64,000 nucleotides of DNA from Planctomyces sp. SH-PL62 (GTDB taxonomy: Bacteria > Planctomycetota > Planctomycetia > Planctomycetales > Planctomycetaceae). Where the stretch lies: positions 1 through 64,000 of the forward strand of contig CAMDEA010000019.1 of the NCBI GenBank assembly GCA_945893045.1, read 5' to 3'. The translations under genes were made by a program, and so were the position numbers. Positions 5,412 through 51,150 of this stretch are shown piece by piece (positions within the stretch are counted from its first letter, which is position 1; each line of letters starts with the position of its first letter). Under the pieces are notes generated by a model that was given only the letters and a program-made list of their open reading frames with translations, had not been told where the DNA came from and did no database searches.

Positions 5412-5566
5412 CGGCGAGCGGGGCGGCGTCAGCCCAAGGGCACTCACTTTGGCGTCAATGTAGCAGGCACATTCCATGTGCCGTCGCCGTATTCTCAGGC
5501 TGACGGCACATGGAATGTGCCTGCTACTTTCCAAAGTCAGTGCCCGTGGGCTGACGCCCGCTCACC
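5412..5566. repeat. Nested inverted repeat (GGCGGCGTCAGC outer arms, GTAG-headed inner arms)
   Basis: Outer arms 5412-5452 and 5531-5566 are imperfect inverted copies containing GGGCAC and GTCAGCCCA. Inner arms 5460-5485 and 5502-5527 match perfectly; each starts with GTAG (read from its own 5' end) and contains the self-palindrome GGCACATTCCATGTGCC. The right arm ends one base before the TonB receptor stop codon. The outer arm is nearly identical to the one at 46548-46586. Confidence 0.9.
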
Positions 5567-7978
5567 TTAATACTTCAGCTCGCTGCCAACGTAGAAGTTG
5601 ATCCCCGGCTGCAACACTCGAAAGCCGCCGGAAGAGCGGAAGTCGAGATGCTCACGAAAATCCTTATTCGTGAAGTTCTCGACACCCGCGACGACCAAGC
5701 ACGCGCGGCTGGCTTGCCATGTGCCACGCAAATCCCATGTGGTGAAGCCGGGCGTCGGAGTTTCCAGCAAGCTTCTCGCAACACGATCCTGGCGATCAAC
5801 GATTCGCGCGGAGAGTTCGGCGGACCAGCGGGCGGATTGTGAGGGTGGCCTCACGCGCACACCCAAACGGCTTTCGAGCGGCAGGATGCTCGGCAACGGC
5901 TCGGAGCTTGGTCCCGTGACGCCGCTGAAGAAGCCGCGCGGTCTCCCGGCCTCTCGGCGGCTGGGAGTCGCGCCGCTATGAATCTCGGTCGCGAAGTTTC
6001 CGTTGCGGGTCCGATCTTGTCCTTCGACGTAGTGGACTCGTCCAAACAGAGTTGCCCAATTCGTGGCGTCGTATTCGAGGTAGCATTCAAAGCCCGCCAG
6101 CGTGGCCAAGTCGGTGTTGACGTATTTCAAGCTGACCTGCTGCGGATCATTCACGGTGGGGAAGACACGCAGGTTCTCGAAGGTGATGTAGTCATTCACC
6201 CAACCGAAGTAGCCGTTGGCCCCCGCTCGCCACTGGTCACGATCCAGTTGCAGTCCCAGGTCGAGCTGCGTGAGTCGCTCGGATGACAACCGAGGATCTC
6301 CGGTGGCAGTGTTCGCACCGTTTTGCAGTAGGAATAAGAAGGACTCGGCAACGTACAACTCAGTCAAGCTCGGCGGGCGTTCCGAGTGCCCCGCGCCGAA
6401 CGTCATTGCCCAGTCGTCATTCATTTCGTAACGCCCGGTCAGAAATACCGCCCAGGGGACGAAGTCCTGCTCGAACTGGCTGGTGCCGAGAATCGCTGCC
6501 AGCGGGGCTCCAGGAGTTCCCAAAGAGGTCAACTTGGCGGGATCTTCGGTGACGTCCGTGTTGACGTAATCGACTCGCGTGCCCGCCGTGAAAGAAAGCT
6601 GCTCGGTGACGGAGTGCTGCAATTCAGCGAACAGTCCCGGATTGACCGATTCGGATTTGGGCAACGGTGAATTCACATTGCTGAAGGAGATGAACCCGGT
6701 GCTTCCCGACGAGAACTCATCGAGCGCTTGCGTGATCGCTCGCAGGTCCGTTCCGGCTGTGAGCCGCATCTGCTGGCTCAGCTCCCAAGTCCCCGCGGCG
6801 CGATAGCCCACCGAGGTCGTCTCCACGTCGGTTCGCCCGACGTAATCGGGAATCCGCGAGAAGAGTCCTGGAAACTGAATCTTCTTCGCCGGCGATTGCG
6901 AATCCCCTTTGAACCGCGTGTTGTTGTACCAGGTGTCGATCACCAGCCGATCGAAATGATCTTGATTGCGCAGCTCGTAGGTCGCTTCAAATCCATCCGT
7001 GACGAGGAAGTCCATATCGAAGAATTGGCCGGGGAACTCCACGTCCGTCTGATCGAGCCGCAGGTAATGAAACTCGATCGAACTGTCGGGCGTCAGGTCG
7101 AACCCCAACGCGAAGTCGACGTCGCGCGACTTGTAGCTCGACGGGATGCCGGTGCCGTTTCCCGATTCATAATCGTTGCCGGTCTTGTGCCCGTACCCAA
7201 TGCGGAAGCCCCAATCATTCTCGCCCCCTTCGAAAGTTTGCCGGCCATACCACTGCTCGCCGTTCGTCTGATAGTTGAGCGATGTGCTGCCTCCCAATTG
7301 CCAACCATCTTCAAATCGCGGTGAGGCCAGCAGTTCGACATCGAGGAAGCGATGGTCGGGACCATATAGCGCCGAATACGGACCCTTCACGACGATGATG
7401 TCGTCGATGATCCGCGAGTCCAACTTGTTGAGCATCGTGTCGAGGTCGATCCGCGCGGGAACCCAGTGCGATCCCGAAGCGGCAAGCTGCCCGACCCGCG
7501 ACCCGCGAACTCGTGGATCAGACACGATGGGATTTCGTCGCTGAGTGCCCACTCCCAGTGCCGTCGATGATTTCCGCAACAAGTTCCCTGCATCCGAAGT
7601 CTGCCGACTTCGCGATTCGCCACCGCTAATCACATCCGAACCCGCCCTCAGCCGCTCTTTGCGCACTGAAGACAACTGGCTCCGCGCGGATTCCGAGGAG
7701 GCGAACAACGATGTTGAGAATTCGCTGGCTGCAGAGGGCAATGGAGCCGGCAATTCTAGCGCTGGTGCCGTTGGCGGTTGCTGCGGCTGCACTTCTTGCT
7801 TCACGAGCCGGATTCGGGGCAAATCTCGGTCATTCGCCGACATCCATTCCAGCGTGACCCACGGCGCTTCCGGTCGCCGAAAGGCGTCGATCCAGGCGTC
7901 ATCGGCGAACGCACTACCGACCATCAGACAGAGGCTCAGCCCCGCCGTCCGTAGCATGATCCGCAGGCGGTCTTCCAT
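5567..7978 (-). CDS. TonB-dependent outer-membrane receptor
   Basis: 803 residues. A hydrophobic signal segment (about residues 8-26, ending SAFADD) is followed by a proline-rich linker, a plug-type segment around residue 200 (DDIIVVKGPYSALYGPD) and a long series of amphipathic strands typical of a 22-strand barrel. The last residue is an aromatic Tyr, as in BAM substrates. An internal Met at 7957 (MLRTAGL) would give a cleaner signal peptide and may be the true start. The family takes up iron chelates, corrinoids, metals or glycans using TonB energy; the substrate cannot be read from sequence. The gene is divergent from the electron-transfer operon starting at 8619, which hints at a metal or redox link. 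No TonB box was confidently located. Confidence 0.88.
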   Translation of the reverse strand: MEDRLRIMLRTAGLSLCLMVGSAFADDAWIDAFRRPEAPWVTLEWMSANDRDLPRIRLVKQEVQPQQPPTAPALELPAPLPSAASEFSTSLFASSESARSQLSSVRKERLRAGSDVISGGESRSRQTSDAGNLLRKSSTALGVGTQRRNPIVSDPRVRGSRVGQLAASGSHWVPARIDLDTMLNKLDSRIIDDIIVVKGPYSALYGPDHRFLDVELLASPRFEDGWQLGGSTSLNYQTNGEQWYGRQTFEGGENDWGFRIGYGHKTGNDYESGNGTGIPSSYKSRDVDFALGFDLTPDSSIEFHYLRLDQTDVEFPGQFFDMDFLVTDGFEATYELRNQDHFDRLVIDTWYNNTRFKGDSQSPAKKIQFPGLFSRIPDYVGRTDVETTSVGYRAAGTWELSQQMRLTAGTDLRAITQALDEFSSGSTGFISFSNVNSPLPKSESVNPGLFAELQHSVTEQLSFTAGTRVDYVNTDVTEDPAKLTSLGTPGAPLAAILGTSQFEQDFVPWAVFLTGRYEMNDDWAMTFGAGHSERPPSLTELYVAESFLFLLQNGANTATGDPRLSSERLTQLDLGLQLDRDQWRAGANGYFGWVNDYITFENLRVFPTVNDPQQVSLKYVNTDLATLAGFECYLEYDATNWATLFGRVHYVEGQDRTRNGNFATEIHSGATPSRREAGRPRGFFSGVTGPSSEPLPSILPLESRLGVRVRPPSQSARWSAELSARIVDRQDRVARSLLETPTPGFTTWDLRGTWQASRACLVVAGVENFTNKDFREHLDFRSSGGFRVLQPGINFYVGSELKY

Positions 7979-8618
7979 GACGCCCTGGCCTCATCCTGAG
8001 GAAATTCGAGTGACAACCGCAACGTCCGTGACGCAAAAGTCCTGGTTCGGTAAGCAGAAAAAAATGGAATCCACGAAGTCCAAGAACATCTTGAGCGGAC
8101 GACGACTCTTGGCCGGCGTTCCACCAGTTCTCGTGTCGGATGCTGCTTGAGTCGGCCATGATCGACATTCTCAAAAAATCAAATCCTTCAGTGGGGCAGG
8201 GTGTCTTAGACCGCCAGCCTTCACCAATTCTTCGGACAGCCACGTCCCGTCTGGGCTCGACAAATTTTTCACAATCAAAATTGTTTCAATTCGATGGAAG
8301 CTCGTCATGTTGTCATCGCGGAGGAAGAGACATCAGTTTTAATGCCCTTTCTCTTCTCGAATTCACCTGCGATCTGGAACAAATGCGAATGACCTTGGCT
8401 TCGTCTGGTCGTCACAGTCAAGAGTCTGAATTCGTAAAGGTCACGTTCCAAGTGCTCGGCAGCGCCATTCACTGAAATGATTTTTTCAATCGGAGACAGG
8501 CTGTTGAAAACTGATTGCGGATTGGTTGTTCTCTTCTGGCGTTGTTGTAGAATCCGCCCGCTGAAGTGTGTTCGTCGCATCAGACAGTCATCACCTCTCA
8601 CGACGTTTGTCACGCACC
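7979..8618. other. Divergent intergenic region between the TonB receptor and the electron-transfer operon
   Basis: About 640 bases that must hold promoters for both directions. It contains AT-rich patches near 8043-8070 and 8265-8300 (ttttcacaatcaaaattg). I looked for a cobalamin riboswitch ahead of the receptor and saw none of its conserved boxes. No operator was recognised. Confidence 0.4.
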
Positions 8619-9602: not shown

Positions 9603-9686
9603 CCGGTGTCGGTTGGCCGTTCCAGGTCAGCCAAATGACAACCGGGCGGCCTTGGAAGACCAACCTTACGACGATGCGAGTAACTT

Positions 9687-20885: not shown

Positions 20886-20933
20886 GTAGGTTGGGACTCT
20901 GTCCCGACCGGTCGGGATGGAATCCCAACCTAC
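20886..20933. repeat. GTAG-headed inverted-repeat doublet upstream of gatC
   Basis: Arms 20886-20908 and 20909-20933 are inverted copies, both headed by GTAGGTTGGGA, with virtually no loop between them. It sits directly upstream of the gatC start. Confidence 0.85.
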
Positions 20934-22770: not shown

Positions 22771-22851
22771 CGTAGCCCGACTCTCCGAGTCGGGCCGCAA
22801 GTCATTTGGGAATTTGAAGACAAGGCACCCGACTCGGAGAGTCAGGCTACG
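22771..22851. repeat. GTAG-headed inverted-repeat doublet between folE and a membrane gene
   Basis: Arms 22771-22794 and 22828-22851 are inverted copies with one mismatch. Each carries CGTAG and the self-palindrome CCCGACTCTCCGAGTCGGG or its near copy. The right arm ends one base before the ATG of the next gene (22852). Confidence 0.9.
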
Positions 22852-24257: not shown

Positions 24258-27200
24258 ATGCACGAACAACGCCGGCGCATTGTCGAAGACCTGTCGGGCG
24301 TCTTTGCGGGCGAACTGGCCGTAGACGCGCTCTCGGTGGCGATGTTTGCCAGCGATGCCAGTTGGTATCAGATTGAACCGCTGGGGGTCGCGTTCCCGAA
24401 GGATCGTGACGACGTCATCGTTCTCGCGAAGTATGCGGCCGAGAAGAAAATCCCGTTGATCCCGCGCGGAGCCGGTTCCAGCGTGACGGGCGGAGCGCTC
24501 GGACGTGGGTTGATCGTGGATTGCTCGCGGCATTTGACGAAGATCGAGCAGATCGGTCCCGACACGGTGCGCGTTCAAGCGGGGGTCGTGCTCGATGATC
24601 TGAATCGCGTGTTGCGCGAGCGTGGTCAGTATTTCCCGCCGGACCCGTCGAACCCCGCGATCACAACGATCGGAAGTATGTTGGCGACCGATGCAGCCGG
24701 CTCGCGGTCGATGCGAGTCGGTTCGACGCGCGATCATGTGCGGTCGGTCGAGATCGTCTTGGCCGGCGGTCAGTGCCTCGAACTGGGCAACGAACCGCTC
24801 GAAGCCGAGTTGCCGCCGAAGGACATCGCGAAGCCGACGGTCGAATCGTTGTTGAGCGATCCGCTAGGAGCCGTCACGGACAGTGTGACTGCGTTGGCGG
24901 CGTCGTTGCTGGGCGGCAGCAGCGATGCTGGCTTGAAGGCGACCGAGTCTGAAGTGCGGCGCGGGCTTGTCAGCCGGTTGGCTCGGTTGTTGTCCGAGAA
25001 CGAAAGTTTGATTCGAGAGAAGCAGCCGCCGATCCCGCGAAACTGCTCCGGGTATTACCTGCGTGGCGTGTTGTCGCGCACGCATCTGCACGCCGCGCGG
25101 TTGCTCGTCGGATCGGAAGGGACGCTGGGGCTGTTCACGTCCGCCACACTGCACACCGCACCGCTGCCGACGGGTCGAGGCGTCGCGCTGTTGTTCTTCG
25201 CGAGCATGGACGCCGCGATTGACGCGGTCCATGCCTTGAGCGATCAGCTTCCGAGTGCGTGCGATCTGCTCGACCGGCGGTTGCTGACGCTTGCGCGTGA
25301 AGCCGACGCCTTCTTCACGCACATCATTCCGCAAACCGCCGAAGCCGCGTTGATCGTCGAGCAGACTGGTTTCAGCGAGGCACAAGCTCGCGACCGCATT
25401 CGTTTCGCGGTCGAAACGGCGAAGCGCTTCGACGGCCATCTGGCGGCGGACGCTTACGATTACGATTCCGTCGAGTTGTTGTGGTCGCTGCCGCGTAAGG
25501 TTGTGCCGCATCTGAATCGTGTGAAGGGAGCGACTCGGCCGCAGCCGTTTGTCGAGGCGATCGCCGTTCCGCCAGAGAAGCTGCGCGAGTTTCTCACCCG
25601 AATGCAACGAGTCTTGCAGAAGCACGAGGTCATCGCCTCGTTGTACTCACACGCGGCGGCCGGGCAGATTCACCTGCGGCCGTTCCTTCCGAACCCGACG
25701 CCGGCTGACGCGCCGCGGCTCGAAGCGATCGCTCGCGATCTTTATCAAGCGGTGTTCGACGTCGGCGGCACGATCAGCGGCGAGCACGGCGACGGACTGT
25801 CGCGAACCAGTTTTCTGCGTTCGCAATATGGATCGCTGTATCGAGTCTTCCAGCAGGTCAAAGATGTCTTCGATCCGCTGCATTTAATGAACCCCGGCAA
25901 GAAGGTCAGCGATGATCCGCACCTGACGGTCAAGAACCTGCGACCAGCGGCGGGGTCAGGAGACCCGCGTCAAGCGCTCGGCGCGGGTCTCCCGACCCCG
26001 CCGGTGATCGAGCTACACTTGAAGTGGAAACCAGACGAGTTGCTCGCACAGGCCGCGACGTGCAACGGCTGTGGAATGTGTCGAACGCAGTCCCCCGATC
26101 TGCGGATGTGCCCGTTCTTTCGCGCCGATCCGACCGAGGAAGCTTCTCCGCGATCGAAGGCGAACATCGTCCGCAACTTTGTGACTGGGCATGTGTCGCC
26201 GCAGGATTTCGCGTCCTCGGCGATGAAGCGGATCGCCGACTTGTGCTTCAACTGCAAGCAGTGCGAACTCGAATGCCCGGCGAACGTCAACGTCTCGCAG
26301 ATGATGATCGAGGCGAAGGCCGCCAACGTCGCGGAGCATGGACTCGACCGCGCTCACTGGCTGCTGTCGCGAGCGCATTCGTTCGGCACGATCGGCTGCA
26401 TGTTGAGTTGGTTCGTGAATCGAGGTCTCAACAACGCGACTGCCCGATGGTTGTTGGAGCGGTTTGTCGGTATTCATCGGCAACGCAAACTGCCACCATT
26501 CGCCCGCAAACCGCTGCTGGATTCGGTCTCGCGCGAGCTGACCGCATTCCCGGAAGAACTCGGTAAGAACAAGCCGGTCGTCTATTTTGTCGATCACTTC
26601 GCGAACTACCACGACCCGGAACTCGGCCGAGCGTTTCTGGCGATCCTGGAATACAACGGCGTGCGCGTGCATGTGCCGGAAGATCAAACTGTCTCCGGCA
26701 TGGCGATGATCTCGGCCGGCGACCTCGACGCCGCTCGCAAAGTTGCCGAGCAAAACGTTCGCGAGTTATCCGAACTCGCTCGTGAAGGTGTGCCGATCAT
26801 CTGCACCGAACCGGCCGCCGCGCTTTGCCTGAAGTACGAATATCCGCGACTGCTCGATCATCCCGACGTGCAGGTTGTCGCAGATCAAGTGGTCGAAGCC
26901 ACCGACTTCCTCGCAGGTCTGCTTGCGAAGGATCAACTTCGTACCGACTTCGGCCCGCTCAAGCTGACCGCCAGCTATCACACGCCGTGCCATCTGAAAG
27001 CCTTGCAGCACGGCAGCCCGGTGCTCAAGCTGCTGGAGCGAATTCCCGAACTGGAAGTTTTCAGCATCGAGAAAGGCTGCTCCGGAATGGCCGGCGCGTT
27101 TGGCCTGACGCGGGAGAACTTTGATTCGTCACTGCGCATCGGCCACGATCTGATCGAGTACATGCGCACGACCGACGTCAACATTGGCCTGACCGAGTGC

Positions 27201-27341: not shown

Positions 27342-27583
27342 AAACTGTTGTGAAACTCTTCGCTCGCGCCCGTGACTTGGCGGGATCGCCAGCTCTGGAA
27401 CTCGACCTTTCCGAATCCGCGACAGCCGCCGATCTGCGCCTCGCGCTCGGCAAACGAGTTCCTGCTTTGGAACCGATCCTGTCGAGCCTGCTCATCGCGG
27501 TCGGCAACGATTACGCTGCCCCCACCACACCAGTCGCCGGCCGCACGGACCTCGCCGTCTTTCCCCCCGTGAGCGGCGGCTAG
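27338..27583 (+). CDS. moaD: Molybdopterin synthase small subunit
   Basis: 81 residues, beta-grasp fold pattern (VVKLFARARDLAGSPALELDL) and the essential C-terminal Gly-Gly (VSGG) that is thiocarboxylated by MoeB-type enzymes. It overlaps the upstream oxidoreductase (ATGA). A GTAG-headed doublet begins at its stop codon. Confidence 0.9.
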   Translation: MKTVVKLFARARDLAGSPALELDLSESATAADLRLALGKRVPALEPILSSLLIAVGNDYAAPTTPVAGRTDLAVFPPVSGG

Positions 27584-27660
27584 TAGGTCAGGCTTTCCAG
27601 CCTGACCAAGTATCGTTCGACTCCCCACCCTAATGGGTCAGCCTGGAAAGGCTGACCTAC
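27583..27660. repeat. GTAG-headed inverted-repeat doublet between moaD and moaE
   Basis: Arms 27583-27607 and 27636-27660 are perfect inverted copies of 25 nt, each GTAG followed by GGTCAGGCT-TTCC-AGCCTGACC style self-palindrome. The stem is the same sequence as at 29214-29295. Confidence 0.93.
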
Positions 27661-27663: not shown

Positions 27664-28107
27664 ATGATCCAACTCACTCACGCCTCCATCGACTTCGCCG
27701 CGCTGACCGAGTCTGTCCGATCGACTCAGGCCGGTGCGGTCGTATTGTTTCTCGGCACGGTTCGCGAGATGACTCAGGGACGGCAAACCGTCGCGCTCGA
27801 TTACGATGCGTACCCGGAGATGGCGGAAGCGAAGCTGAAAGAACTCGAGGCTGAAGCCCGCACACGCTGGCCGGTAATCGAGGCCGGAATCGTGCATCGG
27901 CTGGGCCATCTCGAACTGGGCGACATCAGCGTGGCGGTCGCCGTGAGTTGCCCGCATCGACATCAGGCGTTCGACGCCGGAAGATTCCTCATCGACCGGC
28001 TGAAAGAAGTCGTGCCGATCTGGAAGAAAGAAAACTGGAACGACGGCAGCACCGAATGGGTCCATCCCGGAACCGATCAACCCGTTGCTGCGCCATCAAA
28101 ACACTAA
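27664..28107 (+). CDS. moaE: Molybdopterin synthase catalytic subunit
   Basis: 147 residues. Typical MoaE segments are visible: GAVVLFLGTVREMTQGR near the start, VAVSCPHRHQAFDAGRFLID in the core and VPIWKKENW with the conserved Lys near the C-terminus. It transfers sulfur from MoaD to precursor Z (cPMP) to make molybdopterin. Confidence 0.93.
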   Translation: MIQLTHASIDFAALTESVRSTQAGAVVLFLGTVREMTQGRQTVALDYDAYPEMAEAKLKELEAEARTRWPVIEAGIVHRLGHLELGDISVAVAVSCPHRHQAFDAGRFLIDRLKEVVPIWKKENWNDGSTEWVHPGTDQPVAAPSKH

Positions 28108-28195
28108 CCCGAAGCGTCAGCGAGGGCGAACGCTTCATAACGGTCGGTTACGAATCAAGTCCGGAGAAGCGTTCGCCCTCGCTGACGCTTCGGGG
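28108..28195. repeat. Inverted-repeat doublet between moaE and moaA (CCCGAAGCGTCAGCG type)
   Basis: Arms 28108-28135 and 28167-28195 are inverted copies over about 28 nt (CCCGAAGCGTCAGCGAGG...). The loop is about 31 nt. There is no gene between. Confidence 0.9.
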
Positions 28196-28217
28196 TAGTT
28201 TTGGGAATCGTTGAGTC

Positions 28218-29213: not shown

Positions 29214-29295
29214 GTAGGTCAGGCTTTCCAGCCTGACCCGAACGCGCGAGACCGCGTCGATTCACCATCTGGTCAGCCTGGAAAGGCTGACGTAC
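29214..29295. repeat. GTAG-headed inverted-repeat doublet between moaA and xseA
   Basis: Arms 29214-29238 and 29271-29295 are inverted copies with one mismatch (GTAC in the right copy). The stem sequence is the same as at 27583-27660, so these two are true repeats of one another. The left arm begins immediately after the moaA stop. Confidence 0.93.
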
Positions 29296-31779: not shown

Positions 31780-31833
31780 GTAGACCGGTCACCCCGTGAC
31801 CGGAATGTTCGAGTCACGGAGTGACTCGTCTAC
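31780..31833. repeat. GTAG-headed inverted-repeat doublet containing the VWA gene stop
   Basis: Arms 31780-31800 and 31813-31833 are inverted copies with about three mismatches; the left arm holds the self-palindrome GGTCAC-CCC-GTGACC and both are headed by GTAGAC. The TAG stop of the VWA gene (31830-31832) lies inside the right arm. Confidence 0.85.
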
Positions 31834-32852
31834 TTTCGGCCGAATCGCGTCACGTCGCGATAGCGGTACGTGCCGCCGTTGTCGCGGGCGAGCTTCTTCA
31901 GAAAGTTGTCGCCGGAAAGCTCCGGGCCTTTGCCGAATTCGACGCAATGAATTTTCGTGCGACCGGCGTTGAGCGTTTTGAGTTCGTTGATCTCGCGAGC
32001 GGACAACACCGGCTGATCGGCGTCGGTCAGAAAGAAGAGATGGTCCGTCTGATAGCGCAGGGCTTTCTTCAAGGCCGGCATGTGATCGGTGCCGCCATCG
32101 GGTTGCACGCTGGAGATGAAATTCCGAGCGAACGTGCGATTGATGTCGGTGGCCCATTGCATCTGCGGGCGGTCGTCGTTGCCGCTCATTTCCAGCAACT
32201 TTTGGTTGTAGAAGAGAACTTGAAACTGCTGCGTTTGTTCCAAAGCCGCGAGGCTGACGACGAGCTCTTCCTTGGCGACTCGGATGGCTCCGTGGTCGTA
32301 CATGCTGCCGGAGCGATCGACAACGTAGATGAAGCGATTCCCTTTGGCGGCGATGTCGAAGAAGGTGGTCTCGCCCAGTCCCGAAGCTTCGTCGCCACCG
32401 GCATTGCGCCGGCCGGAGGGCTTGATGAGGTCTTTCGCGTCCGAGGGAGTTCGCAGCGATGCGGGCCGGCCGGCACCGATGACCGGCAGGCGCGAGTCGG
32501 TCGGCAGGCTGAGCAAGTCATTGATCGAGGCGTCATCACCAAGCACCGATTTCTCTGGCTGCGGAAGCCCTTCGTCGCGCGTCATGGCTTCATTGGGCTT
32601 TGCTTCCGCGTTGTCAATCGGCGGGTTGACCGCGTCGCGCGCGACGTGCAATCCGATTTCGCGAAACTGGGCGTCACCCGCTTTCGGCCCGACGGATCCC
32701 GATGTCGAGCAGCCTCGCAAGATCATCGCCAGCGCGAAGAACAACACGATGTGAGTCGCGATCGACAGCAGCCAGCTCGGCACAACCACGTCGATCCGGT
32801 CGCGGCCGTCGTCTACGTCGGAGCCGAGTTTGAGTTCGGGCGCGGTCTGCAT
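31830..32852 (-). CDS. von Willebrand factor A domain membrane protein
   Basis: 340 residues. One TM helix near residues 26-47 (PSWLLSIATHIVLFFALAMIL) is followed by a linker and a VWA domain from about residue 170 with a MIDAS-type DRSGSM and a DGGTDHMPAL threonine loop. It probably mediates metal-dependent protein interactions at the envelope. The downstream end overlaps a hairpin repeat. It lies 5 nt downstream of the LolA-like gene and is likely co-transcribed with it. Confidence 0.85.
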   Translation of the reverse strand: MQTAPELKLGSDVDDGRDRIDVVVPSWLLSIATHIVLFFALAMILRGCSTSGSVGPKAGDAQFREIGLHVARDAVNPPIDNAEAKPNEAMTRDEGLPQPEKSVLGDDASINDLLSLPTDSRLPVIGAGRPASLRTPSDAKDLIKPSGRRNAGGDEASGLGETTFFDIAAKGNRFIYVVDRSGSMYDHGAIRVAKEELVVSLAALEQTQQFQVLFYNQKLLEMSGNDDRPQMQWATDINRTFARNFISSVQPDGGTDHMPALKKALRYQTDHLFFLTDADQPVLSAREINELKTLNAGRTKIHCVEFGKGPELSGDNFLKKLARDNGGTYRYRDVTRFGRK

Positions 32853-35178: not shown

Positions 35179-35273
35179 GGGGTCGGGTGTACGAATTTCA
35201 GATTTCGCCGTCGGAGACTTTCCTATCTCCAAGATCTCAGTCGGCGAAATCTGAAATTCGTACACCCGACCCC
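35179..35273. repeat. GGGTCRGG-headed inverted-repeat doublet
   Basis: Arms 35179-35210 and 35242-35273 are perfect inverted copies of 32 nt, headed by GGGGTCGGG. The loop is about 31 nt. It is 9 nt past the stop of the upstream lipoprotein gene. Confidence 0.95.
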
Positions 35274-35314: not shown

Positions 35315-37189
35315 ATGTGCGCCAGCTTGCTTCCCGAACTGTTGTGTCTGCGCCGGCTCGGCTTGATCACCGATCTGTGGGCGGCGCTGCGGAACTGCCG
35401 GTTGGTCGGCATGTTGATGGGATTGCTGCTCGCGTGCGGTTCGCTCACCGACACGGCTCACGCGCAAACGCGAGCAGACAATGCCCCGTACCCGTTGATG
35501 GACCATCGCGTCCCGCCCGGCACTTGGGCCGAGTGGGTCCGCATTGCTGGCCGAGTTAACGGTATTGAATTTCAACCCGTGCGCGTCGAGTTGCCGTCCG
35601 AAGGCAAAGTGACTTGGTTCGTCGGCTCACGCGACGATGTAAAAGAGTCGGTGCAAGTGAAGCTCGCGGTCGGTCAGTCGTACCGGCTCATGCTCAGCGA
35701 CATGCCGGAGTTTCCGGGCATCGAGTTGTATCCCTCGATCGAACTGCTCGACCGTTTGCATCCGCCGGCCGGACATGCCGACACGTTTGCGATGCCGCTG
35801 ACTTTCACGATCGAAGAGTTGGAAGCGGCGGTCGAGGGTCGCATGGTCACGAAGGTCGTGTACGTCGAGCAGCCGCAGCTCGCATTGCCGTTTGAACTGA
35901 CGAGCGACATCGCCGTCCGCACCGTCAATGCACGAGCCAACCTCATCGAAGAGGCTGACAAATCGGGCCGACCGCTTGCACTGATTCGGCTCGGAGGCCG
36001 CATACCGGCCGCGAACGAAACCCAGGGCGCATTCTTCGGCAACGGTGCGCCGGTGCTCGCAAGCAAAGGGGTCGGGAGTCTTTTTCCGAGCGGACAAACC
36101 GCGTCGAAGACAGAGACCGCGCCCAATGGCCGCTCGGAAAAAGACTCCCGACCCCGTTTCACCGCCGCGGAACCGCGCATCCAACTGGCCTCTCATGCGG
36201 ACGCCCAAGAAGCGACTCGTCCGAAGTTCCAACAGAACCGAGAGGGCCTGATCGCCGCCGATCCGTCGCTCGCCGATAAATACCCGGACGAGTATCTCTT
36301 CGACGGCGGCGATCGCGATTATCCCGTGCATTACGACAGCGACATCATGGTCGGCGTCGAGACCGAAGACACCATTGCCGAGTTCCAGGACCACAAAGGG
36401 AACCGCAAAGTCAAAGCGTCGAATCGTGTCGCGATCTACGCCCCGCGCTTCGCCGCCGTCCGCACAGTCCACGGCATTCGCGAAGGCTTCAACGTGCAGC
36501 GCGTCGCCACCAACTTGGACGACGTGCATGGGGCCGCCCTGCGTCAAAAGATGGTCAGCCAAACCGGACTGCAACGGGACCGCTTGCAAGGGGTCCGCAT
36601 GAGATCACGAGCCAGCGGCATCTTCAGCCAGACCACTCGCAAAGATGTTTCGAGTGCCAAGATCGTCACGCAGCACACCAAGCTGCTGAACGTGTACGAG
36701 GGAGTCCAGTTCCTGCACGATGGCAAAATCCGAAAGAATGAAACCGCTCGGCTGCACGGCGGCATGAACGCGGCCGCGGCCTGGACGAGAGACCTCAACC
36801 CAGTCCTCGTCGCGAATCTGTCCGCCGCTCAAGAAGTCTACGCCATGTTCAAAGTGGCCGAGTTGAATGGCTCCGACGAAGGATTCAAACAGCCCGGCCG
36901 GCTACGACTCGTCAAGCTGGCCGACAAGGACGCCGCCAAACCCGGTGATGTGATCACGTTCACAATTCGCTTCGACAATCTCGGCGACCGCGAGCTGCGG
37001 TTCGTGCGCCTGATCGACAACCTGACGCCCCGTTTGGAATACATCGACGACAGCGCGACCAGCGAGTTGCCCGGCTCGATCAACGTCGACGACAACGGCG
37101 AAGGGAGCCACATCCTGCGATTTGAACTCGACAACCCGCTGGCCGGACACACCGGCGGCGTAATTACCTTCCAAGCCAAACTGCGCTAG
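35315..37189 (+). CDS. Large envelope protein with paralogous N-terminal domain and C-terminal DUF11 domain
   Basis: 624 residues. A signal segment (LVGMLMGLLLACGSLTDTAHAQ) lies near residues 30-52. The domain at about 70-230 matches the preceding lipoprotein. Residues of about 252-281 are encoded by an inverted repeat that keeps the frame open (36068-36155). The C-terminal 90 residues are a DUF11-type domain (LADKDAAKPGDVITFTIRFDNLGDRELRFVRLIDNLTPRLEYI). The role is probably surface or adhesion; there is no enzymatic motif. Confidence 0.8.
   Translation: MCASLLPELLCLRRLGLITDLWAALRNCRLVGMLMGLLLACGSLTDTAHAQTRADNAPYPLMDHRVPPGTWAEWVRIAGRVNGIEFQPVRVELPSEGKVTWFVGSRDDVKESVQVKLAVGQSYRLMLSDMPEFPGIELYPSIELLDRLHPPAGHADTFAMPLTFTIEELEAAVEGRMVTKVVYVEQPQLALPFELTSDIAVRTVNARANLIEEADKSGRPLALIRLGGRIPAANETQGAFFGNGAPVLASKGVGSLFPSGQTASKTETAPNGRSEKDSRPRFTAAEPRIQLASHADAQEATRPKFQQNREGLIAADPSLADKYPDEYLFDGGDRDYPVHYDSDIMVGVETEDTIAEFQDHKGNRKVKASNRVAIYAPRFAAVRTVHGIREGFNVQRVATNLDDVHGAALRQKMVSQTGLQRDRLQGVRMRSRASGIFSQTTRKDVSSAKIVTQHTKLLNVYEGVQFLHDGKIRKNETARLHGGMNAAAAWTRDLNPVLVANLSAAQEVYAMFKVAELNGSDEGFKQPGRLRLVKLADKDAAKPGDVITFTIRFDNLGDRELRFVRLIDNLTPRLEYIDDSATSELPGSINVDDNGEGSHILRFELDNPLAGHTGGVITFQAKLR
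36068..36155. repeat. GGGTCRGG-headed inverted repeat inside a coding sequence
   Basis: Arms 36068-36093 and 36130-36155 are perfect inverted copies of 26 nt (GGGGTCGGGAGTC...). The intervening 36 nt and both arms are translated in frame as a Ser/Lys-rich segment unlike the rest of the protein. Confidence 0.92.
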
Positions 37190-37303: not shown

Positions 37304-37367
37304 AAGGGTCGGGCGTTCAAATTTCAAAATTGCCGAGGCAATTTTGAAATTTGAACGCCCGACCCTT
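37304..37367. repeat. GGGTCRGG-headed near-loopless palindrome
   Basis: Arms 37304-37334 and 37337-37367 are perfect inverted copies of 31 nt with a 2-nt loop (GA). The head is AGGGTCGGGCG. It is located five bases from the convergent DUF1501 stop codon. Confidence 0.95.
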
Positions 37368-43947: not shown

Positions 43948-44183
43948 AAATTTGAAGACCTGACCCTGGCTCGCGCAATGTGCGTCGCACGCCCTTGCTT
44001 TTGCGGTCGCGCTGACCGGCATTGACTCGTTCGCGAATTCACGGCTACAAGCCGCCCCCCTTGAAAGCCGCCTTCGTTCTGCGAGTCGGCCTCACCTGTC
44101 TTGACCCATCTCCGGCGAGTCCTCGCCACGTTTCCTTCCCACTCACCACATCCCTCCCAGCGGATGCTCCAGGAGCGGACATC

Positions 44184-45506
44184 ATGCGCGAACAGCGTTC
44201 GTTATTGCGCGGACCCAATCGGTTCGTCGCTATCGTGACCTTGGGCCTGTGCAGCCTCGCGTGCATGGGTTGTGGCGGCTCCACACCGGTCCCCGCCGAG
44301 AAGTCGGCAGCCACTACGAACACCGCCGACAATGTGAAGTCGTTGCTGGAAAAAGCGACGGCGGCTTTGCAGCAGCGTCAGTGGCAGGCGGCTCTGCAAT
44401 CGCTCACCGAGGCGATCAAGGTCGATCCAAAATGTTCGGAGGCATACTTCCAGCGCGGCAGCTTGCTGGCGGATGCCGGCCAAACGGGGGCGGCGCTGGC
44501 TGACTTCTCGAAAGCGATCGAATTGTCGCCGAAGGACGCCAAGTTACGGCACACGCGCGGCTTCCTGCTGATGACTCAGAAGCAGATCGACGCGGCGATC
44601 GCCGACTTCTCCGCCGCCATCGAGATCAATCCGAAGTTCACACCATCGCTCAACAATCGCGGACTGGCCTGGTTGGCAAAAGACGATCGCGTCAAAGCCC
44701 GCGCCGACTTCGATCAAGCGTTGCAGGTCGATCCCAAGTACGTCGAGGCACTCATCAACCGCGGTTTCACGGCGTACCAGTCAAAGCAACACAAGCAGGC
44801 GATTGCCGATTACGACCAGGCCCTCAAGCTGGCCCCCGACAACGTCAATGCGTTCAATAATCGCGGCATGGCCTACTTTGAAATGAAGGACTTTGAGCAT
44901 GCTGCCGCCGACTTCACGCAAGCCATTGCCCATGAGCGCTACAACCCGAAGTTCTACCTGCAACGCCGAGCGTGTTATCTCGAACTCGACCGCACGGAGG
45001 ACGCTCAAGCGGATGCCGCCAAGGTCGCCTGGCTGGGCAAGCTGAATGTTCTCAACCGCACCGTCACGCAGGAACCGAAAGCGGCCGGCAATTACGTCGA
45101 ACTGGCGCAGCACCTGATCGCGGGCGGCGAACCCAAAGTCGGACTCGCCAGCTACGAGACCGCGATGCAGGTGCAGCCGGGCTACGGCCGGTCGTATTCC
45201 AGCCGCGCCGAGTTCTGGCTGTCGCAAGGCGAATTCGACAAGGCGATCGCCGACTGCGACCGCGCCCTGAAGATTGAACCGCACTTCGAGGCGTATTCGA
45301 TTCGAGGCGATGCGTACTTCCAAAAACAAGACTATGACCGAGCGATCGCCAACTACATCAAGGCCAAGCGTCTGGATGCTCAGGTCGCCCGTGCGTACTT
45401 GCAGCGTGCAAAGCAGCGTGCGGCTGCCGGTTATGCCGATGCAGCCGCGCGAGATCGCGAGCAAGCCTACGACATCGAACCGAGCCTGCAACCGGCCAGC
45501 AACTAG
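44184..45506 (+). CDS. TPR-repeat lipoprotein
   Basis: 440 residues from the ATG at 44184 with AGGAGCGG upstream. The leader ends in a lipobox-like SLACMGCGG. About ten tetratricopeptide repeats follow (WQAALQSLTEAIKVDPKCSEAYFQRG and similar, each with A-x-x-x-F/Y-N/Q-R-G). It is a protein-protein interaction scaffold at the envelope. The stop codon lies in a hairpin arm. Confidence 0.9.
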   Translation: MREQRSLLRGPNRFVAIVTLGLCSLACMGCGGSTPVPAEKSAATTNTADNVKSLLEKATAALQQRQWQAALQSLTEAIKVDPKCSEAYFQRGSLLADAGQTGAALADFSKAIELSPKDAKLRHTRGFLLMTQKQIDAAIADFSAAIEINPKFTPSLNNRGLAWLAKDDRVKARADFDQALQVDPKYVEALINRGFTAYQSKQHKQAIADYDQALKLAPDNVNAFNNRGMAYFEMKDFEHAAADFTQAIAHERYNPKFYLQRRACYLELDRTEDAQADAAKVAWLGKLNVLNRTVTQEPKAAGNYVELAQHLIAGGEPKVGLASYETAMQVQPGYGRSYSSRAEFWLSQGEFDKAIADCDRALKIEPHFEAYSIRGDAYFQKQDYDRAIANYIKAKRLDAQVARAYLQRAKQRAAAGYADAAARDREQAYDIEPSLQPASN

Positions 45507-45562
45507 CACGACGCGCAAGCGAGTGGTTCCGTATTAGCCCCCTCGCTTGCGCGTCGGGCTAG
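45503..45562. repeat. Inverted-repeat doublet carrying the TPR gene stop codon
   Basis: Arms 45503-45523 and 45542-45562 are inverted copies of 21 nt with one mismatch, headed by CTAGC and containing GCGCAAGCGAG. The TAG stop (45504-45506) is in the left arm. It lies between convergent genes, so it may also act as a two-way terminator. Confidence 0.85.
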
Positions 45563-45578
45563 TCAACATCCTCTACCG

Positions 45579-46523: not shown

Positions 46524-46546
46524 GTCGAGTCGCTTTCATTGATCCA

Positions 46547-46711
46547 GGCGAGCGGGGCGGCGTCAGCGCAATGGCACTCACGTTGGTAGCGGCACGGCGC
46601 AAGCCGTCCGGTGAAGTGCGTGAAACTCGACGAAACCGGACGGCTCGCGCCGTGCCGCTACCAGAAATTCGCCAAAATGAGTGCCATTGGGCATTCGCCG
46701 CCTCGCTCGCC
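46547..46711. repeat. Nested inverted repeat (GGCGGCGTCAGC outer arms, GTAG-headed inner arms)
   Basis: Outer arms 46547-46586 and about 46672-46711, inner arms 46584-46611 and 46635-46662 (GGTAGCGGCACGGCGCAAG...; self-palindrome ACGGC-GCAA-GCCGT). The outer left arm matches the one at 5413-5451 with only about three mismatches over 39 nt. Confidence 0.9.
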
Positions 46712-46718
46712 AAATTTT

Positions 46719-48227
46719 TTACGCGATCAATTCGTGCCGGACCTGGCCGTCGCCGGCGATGGGGAACGGGCGGTTCTGTTGATCGTGAATAACGGAGTGC
46801 GGGTTGATGCCCAGCAAGTGAAACGTCGTCGCTTGAATATCCTTCGGAGAGATCGGCGTGTCGGCGACCGTTCCGCCGATGCGATCGCTGTGTCCGATGG
46901 CGGCTCCGCGATGAGTCCCTCCGCCCGCGAGCGACATCGAATACACCTGCGACCAATGATGCCGAGCGGCTCCGACCGGCTTCGAATCAATCTGCGGCGT
47001 GCGGCCGTGCTCGCTGAGACACAGCACCAACGTGTCTTCCAGCAACCCGCGTTGTTCGAGATCGAGGATCAGCGCGGAGTACGCGGCATCGAAGCCCGGC
47101 AGCAGGTACTGCTTCAAACGCGGATAGTGATTCTGGTGAGTGTCCCATGCTCCGCCAAAGTACGTGCCGTAAGCGTCCCAAAAAACCGAGACAAACTGAC
47201 TGCCCGCTTCGACCAGCCGCCGCGCGGCGAGGCACGATTGGCCAAACAGCGTCTGCCCGTATCGGTCTCGCAAGTTCGGAGCTTCTCGGCTGACATCGAG
47301 CGCCTCGCGAATTTTGGACGACGTCAGCAGCGATAGCGCGCGGCCTTGATTCGAAGAGTACGACCGCTCGGCCACCGTGTCGGCAGTTCGACGAGCCGCA
47401 TCAAACTGCGCGAGCAGTTCGCGGCGCAGATTGAATCGGTCGAGCGACACATGCTCGGCAAAGCGGCCCGCTCCGTCGAAAGAGAAGCGGCAGTCAGGAT
47501 CGATGGCCGAGTAGGGATCGGAGTATTCCTTCGGCTGTTCGTGTCGGACTTTCGGAGCCACCTTCAGCGACTTGCCCTCGAACTTCGCCCAGACCGGGTC
47601 GAACTGCTGGCCGAGGAATGCTCCGTAAGGCCCCGCGAGAACTCCGAGATCATCGACCTGCGAATTGAAAACCCAAGGCAAGCCGATATGCCGTGGCGTC
47701 CATTCGCTCGCTTCCGATCGCGGTGCGGATTGTGACCAGTAGTAATCAGCGATCGACCCGAAGTACGGCCAATGCGCCGGATCGCGCGGCTTGGTTTCGA
47801 GGTCGGTGGTGTAAGTCGGCATTCCGCTCAGCGCGTAGGCGACACAGTGGAGCGGGTACGGGTGCGTCATCGACCGCACGATTGTCAGCCGATCGGCGAC
47901 TTGAGCCGTCAGCGGCAAGCCTTCGCAAATCGGCACACCGGCCAGCGCGGACGAGATCGCCTTCATCTCCCCTTGAATCTCGACGGGAGCATCTGGTTTT
48001 GGATCAAACGTCTCATGCTGAGGAGCCGCTCCGAACAAAAACAGCATGATGCAGCGTTTCGCTTTTCCGAAACCACGCAGCTCGCCGCCAGAGGCCAATG
48101 ACTCCGCCGCCAGGGAGGCAGCTCGCTCGGCGGTTAGTCCATACACGCCCAGTCCGCCGATGTGCAGCAGATCGCGACGAGTCACACCGTCGCACAATTG
48201 CCGTGGAGAACCGAGCAAACGCAACAT
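46719..48227 (-). CDS. DUF1501 protein (sulfatase-like, Tat-exported)
   Basis: 502 residues. A twin-arginine leader (VTRRDLLHIGGLGVYGL) is present. Signature segments are KRCIMLFLFGAAPQHETFDPKP, LSEHGRTPQ and the C-terminal AGGGTHRGAAIGHSDRIGG. Unlike the gene at 37372 it has no adjacent PSD1 partner. A different sub-clade from the other two copies is likely. Confidence 0.9.
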   Translation of the reverse strand: MLRLLGSPRQLCDGVTRRDLLHIGGLGVYGLTAERAASLAAESLASGGELRGFGKAKRCIMLFLFGAAPQHETFDPKPDAPVEIQGEMKAISSALAGVPICEGLPLTAQVADRLTIVRSMTHPYPLHCVAYALSGMPTYTTDLETKPRDPAHWPYFGSIADYYWSQSAPRSEASEWTPRHIGLPWVFNSQVDDLGVLAGPYGAFLGQQFDPVWAKFEGKSLKVAPKVRHEQPKEYSDPYSAIDPDCRFSFDGAGRFAEHVSLDRFNLRRELLAQFDAARRTADTVAERSYSSNQGRALSLLTSSKIREALDVSREAPNLRDRYGQTLFGQSCLAARRLVEAGSQFVSVFWDAYGTYFGGAWDTHQNHYPRLKQYLLPGFDAAYSALILDLEQRGLLEDTLVLCLSEHGRTPQIDSKPVGAARHHWSQVYSMSLAGGGTHRGAAIGHSDRIGGTVADTPISPKDIQATTFHLLGINPHSVIHDQQNRPFPIAGDGQVRHELIA

Positions 48228-48410
48228 CGCGGCAGCCTCAGGCCAAGAAGAGCGGTCCAGCCGTTACTGTCGAGCAACGTAGTGTCGCGACCGCAGCCTG
48301 TCGAGCAGTTCTGGCGGTTGCCACGTTCTCCGGGCACCAGTAGACTCCCGCCCCTTCGGTTTCGACCGGTTTTCGCGACTTACTCTTGATGATATTGAGG
48401 ATCCTGCAAC
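48228..48410. other. Divergent intergenic region upstream of rpmA
   Basis: 183 bases between the DUF1501 start and rpmA. TGAGGATCC lies upstream of the rpmA ATG as a candidate ribosome binding site. No clear promoter was identified. Confidence 0.4.
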
Positions 48411-48671
48411 ATGGCTCATAAGAAGGGACAAGGCTCCAGCCGCAACGGACGTGACTCGAATTCCCAGCGGCTGGGGATCAAGAAGTTCGGCGGCCAAAGC
48501 GTCATCGCCGGCAACATCCTGGTGCGGCAGTGTGGTACCAAGTGGCATCCCGGCAAGAACGTGGGACTCGGCAAAGACTACACGATCTTTTCGCTGGTCG
48601 ACGGCACCGTTTACTTTGATCGAGAAGGCCGCCGAATCAACGTTCGATTGCCAGAGACGGCTCAGGCTTAA
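48411..48671 (+). CDS. rpmA: 50S ribosomal protein L27
   Basis: 86 residues, [29 protein letters not shown], the family's unmistakable N-terminus. Unusually, rplU (L21), its customary operon partner, is not upstream; upstream is the divergent DUF1501 gene. Confidence 0.97.
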
Positions 48672-48695
48672 TTGATACCAGACGATGGATTGTCC

Positions 48696-48723
48696 AAGGC
48701 GGGAATCATCTCCCGCCTTTTTT
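48696..48723 (+). terminator. Rho-independent terminator of rpmA
   Basis: AAGGCGGGA, 4-5 nt loop, TCCCGCC then TTTTTT; 25 nt after the rpmA stop. Confidence 0.9.
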
Positions 48724-48840
48724 CTTGCCCATTGCGAAGGGGGCGTCAGTTTGTCCTTGCCGAAAGCCACCAAAAACGGTGAGCTATGGGCCTGTTCGCG
48801 TTCGATCTCAGAGAGACGAACGAAACACAGGAGGTCGCCC

Positions 48841-50292
48841 ATGTCCACGAAATTGTCTTGGGGCCATCCCGCGCTCAGCCGCCGCACCGCTTTGCAGGCG
48901 GGTGCCGTCGGGCTGCTGGGATTGGGGACGAACCATCTGGAGTCACTGCGAGCGGCAGCGGCTCCAGGGCACGCATTAGTCGGCACCGCTAAGTCGGTCA
49001 TTTATGTCTTTTTGTCCGGAGGCTTGGCGCAGCAGGACAGCTTTGATTTGAAGCCTGACGCGCCGGACAACATTCGCGGCGAGTTCCAACCGATCTCGAC
49101 GCGCACTCCCGGACTCCAGATTTGCGAGCACTTGCCGCAGCTCGCGCAACGCAGTCACCTGTGGTCGCTGTGCCGCTCGCTGACGCATCCGTCGAACGAT
49201 CATTCGTTGGGTCATCACATCATGCTGACCGGTCGCTCGGACGCGCCGGTGGGCTTCAATCCCAGCAAGCCGGGACCGCTTGATTGGCCATCCATCGCGT
49301 CCGTTGGCGGAGCGATGACTCCTTCGCGCAACAATCTGCCTCCGGCCGTCGTGCTGCCGGATCGCTTGGTGCATTATTCCGCACGAGTTCTCCCCGGTCA
49401 GTTCGCGGGGCTGATGGGCTCGCGGCGAGATCCGTGGTTCATCGAACTTTCGCCATTCAGTTCACTCGGTTACGGAGCGTACCCGGAATACGAGTTCGAT
49501 CATCAAGAGCGGCCAAAGATGCCGCGTCGCTTTAAGTTTGAAGCGCCGAATCTCTCGCTGCCCGAAGGAGTCAGCTTCGGCCGCTTGGACCGGCGCGTGG
49601 ACTTAGTCAACTTGATCGATCAGCAGCGCATCGAATTGGATCGAGGCGGCTCGACCACGAGCTTCGACCGGCATCGCCAAACCGTGCTGTCTCTGTTGAC
49701 CGACGCCAAGACGCGGCAAGCGTTCGATGTGACGAAAGCTCCGGATGCCGACCAGGATCGTTATGGACGCAATTCGTTCGGCTGGTCGCTGCTGATGGCC
49801 AAACGGCTGGTCGAAGTCGGCGTCAATTTGATCCAAGTGAATCTCGGCAACAACGAAACGTGGGACACGCACGGCGAAGCGTTCCCACATCTCAAGGATT
49901 TGCTGTTCCCGCCGACGGATAAGGCGTTGTCCGCGCTGTTGGATGACCTGTCACAAAGCGGGTTGCTCGACAGCACGCTGATCGTGATGGCTGGCGAATT
50001 CGGCCGCACACCGAAGATCACACACCTGCCGCAGCACTACAAACTCCCCGGCCGCGACCACTGGGGCGCGGTGCAAACCGTGTTCTTCGCCGGCGGCGGC
50101 GTGAAGGGGGGCCGAGTCATCGGCTCGTCCGACAAGATCGGCGGCTATCCCGCCACCGACCCGCAGCGTCCCGAAAACATGGCCGCGACGATTTATTCCG
50201 CGCTCGGCATCCCCGACACCGCCGCATGGCGCGACGACCTCGACCGCCCGCATCACATCTATCACGCCGAGCCAATCCGCGGATTGATCTGA
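48841..50292 (+). CDS. DUF1501 protein (sulfatase-like)
   Basis: 483 residues from the ATG at 48841, chosen for the AGGAGG ribosome binding site. The leader LSRRTALQAGAVGLLGLGTNHL is Tat-like. Signatures are [54 protein letters not shown] and SSDKIGGYPATDP. It stands alone, with no PSD1 neighbour. Confidence 0.92.
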   Translation: MSTKLSWGHPALSRRTALQAGAVGLLGLGTNHLESLRAAAAPGHALVGTAKSVIYVFLSGGLAQQDSFDLKPDAPDNIRGEFQPISTRTPGLQICEHLPQLAQRSHLWSLCRSLTHPSNDHSLGHHIMLTGRSDAPVGFNPSKPGPLDWPSIASVGGAMTPSRNNLPPAVVLPDRLVHYSARVLPGQFAGLMGSRRDPWFIELSPFSSLGYGAYPEYEFDHQERPKMPRRFKFEAPNLSLPEGVSFGRLDRRVDLVNLIDQQRIELDRGGSTTSFDRHRQTVLSLLTDAKTRQAFDVTKAPDADQDRYGRNSFGWSLLMAKRLVEVGVNLIQVNLGNNETWDTHGEAFPHLKDLLFPPTDKALSALLDDLSQSGLLDSTLIVMAGEFGRTPKITHLPQHYKLPGRDHWGAVQTVFFAGGGVKGGRVIGSSDKIGGYPATDPQRPENMAATIYSALGIPDTAAWRDDLDRPHHIYHAEPIRGLI

Positions 50293-50317
50293 GGTCAGCC
50301 ACTGCGATGAGTGAGAG

Positions 50318-50393
50318 GTTTAACCGCCACGCCATCGGCGTGCGCGGGAATCGTTTGGCCCTCGCGCCCACGCCGATGGCGTTGGGGTTAAAC
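50318..50393. repeat. Inverted-repeat doublet after the third DUF1501 gene
   Basis: Arms near 50318-50348 and 50359-50393, outer ends GTTTAAC, inner palindrome CACGCC-ATC-GGCGTG in each arm. The match is imperfect. Confidence 0.75.
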
Positions 50394-50508
50394 AAACTTT
50401 CCAGAATTCTGCGGAATCTTCTTCGTCCCCGTTCGTGCTTCCGACAGAGCGGCTCGTGTGAGTCGCTCGCAACGGAAACACGAGCAACACGAACGAGGGA
50501 GATGAATC

Positions 50509-51150
50509 ATGCGGAAGATCATTGTGGCATTGGGAGTTGTCGCGAGCGGAATGGTTGGAATCTTCGCCGTCGCAGGGCGGGGCACTCACGAACTTAAAGG
50601 CTTCGTCCGAGCGTCTGCCGACCGAGCGGCGGATGGTGTCACCGAATCGCTGTCGGAAGAAATCCACGACCGGAAGATCGACCAGGAGATGAAGCAGGTC
50701 CGGCTCGATCTGATCGACCAGCAAGTGCAGATGAATCTCTCCAGTCGCAAGATCGAGGAACTCACGGGCAGCATCGAGCGTCGGCAGCGACTCTTGGCCG
50801 AGGCGTATCCGATCCTCATCCTAATGCCCGTAGCCACGTTCGCCAGAACGTGGGCGACGTCGCGAAACCCCCACGTTCTGGCGAACGTGGCTACGACGGA
50901 CTTCGGCCTTGAAACCGAGTGCCTTTGCCACCGCCAAGAAGACGAGTTCGCCCCCATGAGGTTGAACCTGAGATACAAGCACAGGGTCGAGCATCACGAC
51001 GACGATGACAACCGCAGCAACTGGGGTTTCGTAATTGGGCGGATCATCACGTCGATCGGAAGCAGCATCCCCTCTACGGTCATCACGACATTGACCGGCC
51101 GCACGTCAAAGACGCCGACTCCGTGGCCGGCGAAAGCGGCGGAATCGTAG
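50509..51150 (+). CDS. Small membrane/coiled-coil protein, 3' part replaced by a repeat
   Basis: Good start: GAGGGAGATG upstream of ATG 50509, then a signal/TM segment (IIVALGVVASGMVGIFAVAG) and a charged, helical region (DQEMKQVRLDLIDQQVQMNLSSRKIEELTGSIERRQRLLAEA). From about 50829 the frame enters a perfect GTAG doublet and loses coiled-coil character; it then overlaps the 3' end of an opposite-strand gene. I infer that only the first 105 residues are original protein. Function unknown. Confidence 0.55.
   Translation: MRKIIVALGVVASGMVGIFAVAGRGTHELKGFVRASADRAADGVTESLSEEIHDRKIDQEMKQVRLDLIDQQVQMNLSSRKIEELTGSIERRQRLLAEAYPILILMPVATFARTWATSRNPHVLANVATTDFGLETECLCHRQEDEFAPMRLNLRYKHRVEHHDDDDNRSNWGFVIGRIITSIGSSIPSTVITTLTGRTSKTPTPWPAKAAES
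50829..50895. repeat. GTAG-headed inverted-repeat doublet inside a reading frame
   Basis: Arms 50829-50854 and 50870-50895, 26-nt perfect inverted copies. Each has CGTAG and the palindrome CCACGTTC-GCCA-GAACGTGG. It interrupts the reading frame of 50509. Confidence 0.95.

Follow-up and report, generated by a model that had tools for sequence, protein, structure and literature searches.

A 64,000-nt stretch of Planctomyces sp. SH-PL62 (positions 1 to 64,000 of contig CAMDEA010000019.1, assembly GCA_945893045.1; here, the window) carries nine inverted pairs, or doublets, of short palindromes headed by the tetranucleotide GTAG. We conclude, with a probability of about 0.93, that the doublets are pairs of repetitive extragenic palindromes (REPs), also called bacterial interspersed mosaic elements (BIMEs) or REP doublets forming hairpins (REPINs). 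They would thus be nonautonomous mobile palindromes of many families, each copied by its own REP-associated tyrosine transposase (RAYT). The repeat system is real, strongly non-random, and rich in families; it bears the marks of mobility and is of a known kind. Dispersed families, enrichment of the head, compensatory changes within stems, RAYT genes flanked by matching stems, and presence or absence at orthologous sites were each seen directly. Below, C numbers are contigs of the same genome, G001 to G011 are relatives within the genus, and L numbers are the loci or stretches that were read.

Results

GTAG doublets belong to many dispersed stem families

The original prediction, made from the letters of the window alone, listed eight inverted doublets headed by GTAG. 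All eight are present and fold as it described; the hairpins of stems D and G each have 8 pairs, and the loops measure 3 to 5 nt. Most of its coordinates stood as well, while three heads lie 1 to 2 nt away, at 22772, 46586, and 50830 instead of 22771, 46584, and 50829. An inverted-repeat finder gave 28 pairs in the window, and the 25 longest include six of the eight; the doublets at 29214 and 31780, outside those 25, were seen by other inspections. Stem A (CAGGCACATTCCATGTGC) forms the doublet at 5460 to 5527, stem B (GTTGGGACTC.GTCCCGA) that at 20886 to 20933, stem C (CC[CT]GACTCTCCGAGTCGG) that at 22772 to 22850, and stem D (GTCAG[GC]CTTTCCAG[CG]CTG) that at 27583 to 27660. Stem E (AC[CG]GGTCAC / ACGAGTCACTCCGTGACT) lies at 31780 to 31833, stem F (CGGCACGGCGC[AG]AGCCGT) at 46586 to 46661, and stem G (CCACGTTCGCCAGAACGT) at 50830 to 50894. 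Stem D recurs at 29214 to 29295, as the prediction had said of these two loci; its arms there are headed GTAG and GTAC, and the doublet is left out of the GTAG/GTAG counts for that reason. A ninth doublet, absent from the earlier list, spans 57934 to 57985 and has stem H (CCGAGTTGCTCC.CAACT), which joined the stem E cluster when stems were clustered. None of these features is assigned a strand.

Enrichment of the head was measured in a 464-kb sample (6% of the 7.83-Mb genome), made up of the window and 20 further stretches, each 20 kb long. Inverted arms were sought for each of the 256 tetranucleotide heads, with an optional filter requiring the arms to end at the head. With this outer-side filter, there were 35 outward GTAG doublets, and GTAG led the 256 heads in count and in rate alike. 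Behind it came TAGC (13, a register shift of GTAGC), CGTA (12), and GGGG (11). Unfiltered, GTAG doublets numbered 47, or 46 after one overlapping duplicate was dropped, a count that covers head-outward pairs alone and takes in neither singletons nor other orientations; each of 20 block shuffles gave 0. Moreover, perfect hairpins headed by GTAG numbered 27, against 0, 1, and 1 in three shuffles. Chance palindromes are ruled out, as doublets and perfect hairpins both lie far above the shuffles. The comparison of GTAG with other heads, which the prediction had proposed as its own test, thus came out on the side of a GTAG-headed system.

Stems were clustered by linkage at 14 of 18 identical positions, a threshold at which 0 of 20,000 random 18-mer pairs were linked. 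The 46 doublets fell into 13 clusters, nine of them with at least two members. The stem E cluster was the biggest in the sample (10 of the 46), and stems F and H had one doublet each. Spacers measured 7 to 14 nt in stem E and 21 to 24 nt, plus one of 30 nt, in stem G. Many dispersed copies are seen for stem D by a whole-genome count, whereas the figures for the other window stems are the sample counts. Stem D had 112 + 116 = 228 matches in the whole genome at up to 3 mismatches, and the same pattern read backwards as a control had 0 + 1. Among 60 copies of stem D in stretches of this genome, the pair at positions 10 and 19 was G-C in 31, C-G in 28, and A-G in 1. The pair swaps between G-C and C-G, and thus the hairpin is preserved though its letters vary. 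Thirteen clusters seems to us a high number for 6% of a genome.

Some RAYT genes outside the window are flanked by matching stems

The window holds no Y1 or RAYT match by genome searches with PF01797 and NF047646, in agreement with the earlier reading that it lacks a RAYT gene. Y1 genes occur at 13 distinct places in the whole genome (PF01797 finds 11 and NF047646 finds 10, with overlaps counted once), and two of these places, on C27 and C11, have GTAG doublets on both sides. Stem D, exactly the stem of the doublets at 27583 and 29214, borders the C27 RAYT on either side. The C11 RAYT is broken, with one stop inside, and both of its sides carry the GTAG stem GTAGCCCGACCCCTTG. The C27 protein is borderline for the NCBIfam model REP_Tyr_transpos (cut-off 80 bits), with 80.2 bits when the whole genome was searched and 79 bits when the protein was scored alone, and it exceeds the cut-off of Y1_Tnp. 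Among PDB sequences up to an E value of 1, its sole match was TnpArep (4er8); the match is weak (E = 0.026), and the HUH, WQ, and Y motifs line up in the alignment.

The search was carried to congeners with NF047646, which gave 82 matches, and surroundings were read for 54 of them; 80 loci of more distant RAYTs from a contig scan stand outside these flank counts. At several RAYT loci the extracted frame was on the wrong strand, and later comparisons took only frames with the HUH motif. Arms of a same-stem REP stand on both sides at 13 of the 54 places (L140, L146, L154, L155, L164, L168, L169, L314, L322, L326, L327, L329, and L330) and on one side at four (L148, L321, L323, and L328, two of which run to a contig end). 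The heads at the two-sided loci are GTAG, with GGAG in L146 and L322 and GTGG in L326, though not each head was checked. Stem B lies on both sides of the RAYTs of L327 and L330, both from G004, and an A-like stem, with 2 to 3 mismatches to the stem at 5460, lies on both sides of the RAYT of L329 (G006). Stem D flanks the RAYT of L169 (G008), and stem J flanks that of L146 (G001). One-sided matches to stems of the SH-PL62 genome were K at L328 (G009) and N at L321 (G006) and L323 (G001). Thus, the RAYT genes with matching flanks that the prediction had proposed to look for exist outside the window, for stem D on C27 and for stem B and an A-like stem in congeners.

RAYT lineage follows stem for stems B and D. 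In a tree of 18 proteins, the pair of stem D RAYTs formed a clade with support of 100/100 and the pair of stem B RAYTs one with 100/99; long branches leave the deeper branching order of this tree uncertain. Proteins close to the stem B RAYT, at 81 to 97% identity and some of them in pieces, occur in G004, G006, and G008, and its best-scoring match in the SH-PL62 assembly has 35% identity. Stems A and B are without their RAYT in this assembly, yet each has one in the genus.

The other Y1 genes of the genome have different surroundings. Four RAYT-like genes are bordered by inverted repeats other than GTAG, on C155 (GGGGTCAGG...), C8 (AGCACGACGCGCCAGCGAGTGG), C2 (GGCGGCTAGCGCCGTGCCGCTCA), and C31 (GCGCACGCGGCTCGCGTGCG). 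The Y1 gene of C110 has a single stem N arm on one side, and the remaining places are mostly IS200-like with inverted repeats of their own. We note that palindromes in the window at 35179 to 35273, 36065 to 36158, 37304 to 37367, and 25941 to 26010 start with GGGTCGGG or GGGTCAGG and resemble by eye the inverted repeats of the C155 (L062) Y1 gene, which are of the kind described below as TIRYT-like. Two more, at 45502 to 45563 and 57714 to 57783, look by eye like the inverted repeats of the C8 (L067) and C2 (L010) Y1 genes. The palindrome at 28100 to 28202 (AACACTAACCCGAAGCGTCAGCGAGGG...) is like one at L065:2159-2238, downstream of the C110 Y1 gene, and another in L341. Finally, two dispersed repeats, roughly 140 and 200 bp long (L059:17498-17637 and L059:4480-4690), match many places in SH-PL62 and in its congeners and, as far as inspected, are not GTAG doublets.

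Doublets are present, absent, or different at orthologous sites

Relatives with flanks aligning at about 70 to 95% were compared at sites in the window and in three other stretches, and a mechanical label for empty-like sites was rechecked by eye on the sequences. The comparison needs a relative with both flanks, and the sites at 5460 and 50830 fall outside it. At 22772, one of eight relatives (G004) has the same doublet, six (G002, G003, G005, G007, G010, and G011) have a gap of 3 to 8 nt, and G008 has an unrelated 427 nt. At 27583, one of nine relatives (G002) has the same stem, G001 has another GTAG stem, G005, G007, G010, and G011 have 14 to 16 nt, and G003, G004, and G008 have other sequence. 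At 46586, stem F is found in none of nine relatives; G004 has an outer palindrome without a GTAG doublet, G008 has stem N-like arms, G003 has another palindrome, and the other six have 10 to 25 nt. The doublet at 31780 is shared with G002, and G004 has another palindrome there. The doublet at 29214 is shared with G008, with other palindromes in G002 and G004. The doublet at 57934 is shared with G002 and also with G008, in which the left head has decayed. At 20886, SH-PL62 has stem B, G002 and G004 have stem D, and G008 has a 14-nt gap free of doublets.

The doublets are thus polymorphic for insertion between relatives at 20886, 22772, 27583, and 46586. Comparison of orthologous regions had been suggested with the prediction, with identical stems at every locus as the outcome that would speak for plain terminators; presence and absence were found instead, and identical stems were not always carried. 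In the reverse direction, 46 doublets from stretches of relatives were mapped back, and SH-PL62 had the same stem at 13, a different stem at 8, and none at 10, with 15 unmapped. Two sites among the eight different-stem doublets are counted in two relatives each, and one of the same-stem rows (G008, L178) has flanks as poor as those of L044:10754 in G008, which was removed from the different-stem list for poor alignment of its flanks.

Some doublets are nested, and many lie at gene ends

Two of the eight listed doublets, at 5460 and 46586, are nested in larger palindromes that the prediction did not mention. The outer palindromes span 5425 to 5558 around stem A, a composite that is itself a dispersed repeat, and 46547 to 46711 around stem F; neither is assigned a strand, and their arms include GGCGAGCGGGGCGGCGTCAGCCCAATGGCACTGACTTT. 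In 5 of the 46 doublets, four of them with stem A or F, the flanks paired above the 99% level of a null set in which each flank was combined with one from another doublet. Nesting as a general rule is ruled out by this count, and it belongs mainly to stems A and F. Twenty stem A/F composites were chosen as matches to one composite and are therefore uninformative about how often stem A is nested.

Around 92 heads, 25 open frames with 120 codons or more, non-gene frames included, end within 30 nt of a head, and 13 of them stop exactly at the TAG of GTAG (for example, 31830 to 32852 in the window and L052:883-1917). Nine of these 13 were tested with Pfam, and six had a domain. We also note a gene with an RVT_1 (reverse transcriptase) domain at L044:10833-11999 that stops at the TAG of a stem B head. 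The gene before 29214 encodes a MoaA-like protein and has its stop codon immediately before the head, and the doublet at 22772 occupies the whole gap from a GTP cyclohydrolase gene to the next start codon. From reading of the sequence, we take the gene ends around 27583 to be moaD (before) and moaE (after). PSCyt1, PSCyt2, and PSD1 domains were also found and point to Planctomycetota. Known structured RNAs gave no Rfam match at gathering score within the window.

Discussion

How a single head comes to stand on many stems has a precedent. Di Nocera et al. (2013, PMC3733652) describe a GTAG superfamily of REPs, with families GTAG-1 to GTAG-24 and REPtrons, in which membership is defined by a short palindrome ended by GTAG (or GTGG or GGAG). 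The window doublets bear the marks of the superfamily, being short palindromes ended by GTAG with the inverted pair as the common unit. Shared with the published families are GTAG at one end, a short stem, a loop of 3 to 5 nt, head-outward dimers separated by 20 to 100 bp or less, more than one family in a genome, RAYTs bordered (here for some of the stems) by identical repeats, dimers within larger palindromes, the TAG of the head used as a stop codon, and Planctomycetes among the hosts (PMC3733652). The likeness to GTAG-1 to GTAG-24 is one of general description. In that account, the termini of GTAG REPs often supply a stop codon, and doublets sit within larger palindromes in A. variabilis, T. 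roseum, and H. neapolitanus (PMC3733652). The prediction considered conservation of the head with divergence of the stem unusual; published GTAG REPs show it as a rule (PMC3733652). Indeed, divergent GTAG stems, one RAYT per family, and RAYT-less families through loss are all on record (PMC3733652, PMC3686654, PMC6006769, PMC12306157, PMC8266576, PMC2817692).

Two further systems are comparable. In fluorescent pseudomonads and stenotrophomonads, REP classes undergo RAYT loss and "orthoswitch" (Nunvar et al. 2013, PMC3686654). As there, we see one RAYT lineage per stem and a stem class that is RAYT-less in one strain and RAYT-bearing in a relative (PMC3686654). There, orthologous RAYTs go with different REP classes (PMC3686654), whereas here different stems stand at orthologous sites without a RAYT. 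The TIRYT genes of TIRtrons are Y1 genes that lie between long inverted repeats unrelated to GTAG, some of them with GGGGWSAS (PMC3733652). The Y1 genes of C155, C8, C2, and C31 are like these, and the C155 repeat starts with GGGGTCAG. Unlike the GTAG doublets, their TIRtron-type repeats are other families.

How the doublets spread may be proposed from published work on other RAYTs. Each REP family would have a RAYT of its own to copy it, and this Y1 HUH transposase would read the GTAG head together with the family hairpin. By analogy, the RAYT would cleave single-stranded REP DNA and move the doublet. Many stem families may coexist because several RAYT lineages were active in spreading REPs, either here or in ancestors of this genome, and some RAYTs may have been lost from the assembly, or never been in it, while their REPs stayed behind. 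Altering GTAG alters the cleavage site of one RAYT (PMC8266576). Thus, the head may be retained because it helps to choose the cleavage site, with the stem free to diverge along with its RAYT. Of the two explanations that the prediction offered, many REP families in one genome is borne out by the 13 clusters among 46 doublets, the stem-flanked RAYTs outside the window, and the presence and absence of doublets. The other, an unknown generator of palindromes, is superfluous for stems A, B, and D and improbable, if conceivable, in the case of C, E, F, G, and H.

Several observations count against mobile REP families each served by a RAYT. Spacers of stem B range widely (4, 17, 39, and 40 nt). GTAG-type arms on both sides are missing from 11 of the 13 Y1 places of this genome and from 41 of the 54 congener places, several of which carry other inverted repeats. 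No RAYT matching stem A or B was found in the SH-PL62 assembly, and none cognate to stems C, E, F, G, and H was found among the 13 own and 54 congener places, such that the window doublets at 22772, 31780, 46586, 50830, and 57934 have no traced RAYT there. Limits of the search enter here, as the SH-PL62 assembly is 89% complete in 251 contigs and the surroundings of 28 congener matches were left unread. Finally, in several relatives the site is not cleanly empty but holds unrelated sequence, and no target-site duplication was established; mobility was not directly seen.

Other explanations were weighed against the same data. Doublets are located at gene ends and must form hairpins if transcribed, and they could be immobile intrinsic terminators or attenuators with a common head. 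Two arms (22827 to 22847 and 31810 to 31828) are indeed among 16 terminator-like sites between 20001 and 35000, but shuffles of that region gave 14.9 ± 4.1 such sites, and a T-run (at least 6 T in 8 nt, on either strand) follows only 1 of the 46 doublets. We reject terminators on these two counts. Moreover, copies of the families lie scattered, border transposase genes, and are missing from orthologous sites, and we regard an immobile regulatory role as very improbable. Stems C, E, F, G, and H raise a separate question, as no RAYT flanked by them turned up even though the stem E cluster is the biggest. Some non-RAYT agent, or a RAYT of broad stem preference, might have made them. Their head and architecture, however, are identical to those of families with a RAYT, and stems A and B are likewise RAYT-less here yet RAYT-bearing in congeners. 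With 28 matches unread, fragmented assemblies, and RAYT-less REPs put down to loss being common in other genera (PMC3686654), we find a different maker for these stems improbable.

An addition to the REP reading is that, by way of the shared GTAG heads, a resident doublet may be swapped in place for a doublet from a different family, in a cassette replacement driven by RAYTs. Sites, head, and architecture would then persist while stems turn over. The best case is 20886, at which the stem B doublet here and the stem D doublet of G002 and G004 begin at the identical base and end no more than 2 nt apart. GTAG doublets of different stems also share a site at 27583 and, outside the window, at L044:18135, L051:10250, L059:16266, near L051:9004, and, by eye, at L059:574. 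Other than at 20886, however, positions match only to within about 2 to 25 nt, inside short intergenic gaps. The stretches of relatives were picked around doublets of SH-PL62; co-location is inflated as a result, and the mapped-back counts are no proof that sites are reused beyond convenient gaps. Furthermore, at L044:18135 in G004, a second doublet, borne by another palindrome, sits within an arm of a stem E doublet, so addition happens too. Replacement in place seems to us unlikely; were it true, the stem at a given site would turn over between species.

Taken as REP pairs, the doublets overturn nothing that is known. Numerous REP families live side by side in this planctomycete genus, and several can be assigned a RAYT through the stems that flank it. 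Eleven congeners with alignable flanks show sites that are filled, empty, or differently filled. The genus is therefore a handy system in which to study the part of the RAYT that reads the stem, the gain and loss of REP families, and the reuse of sites.

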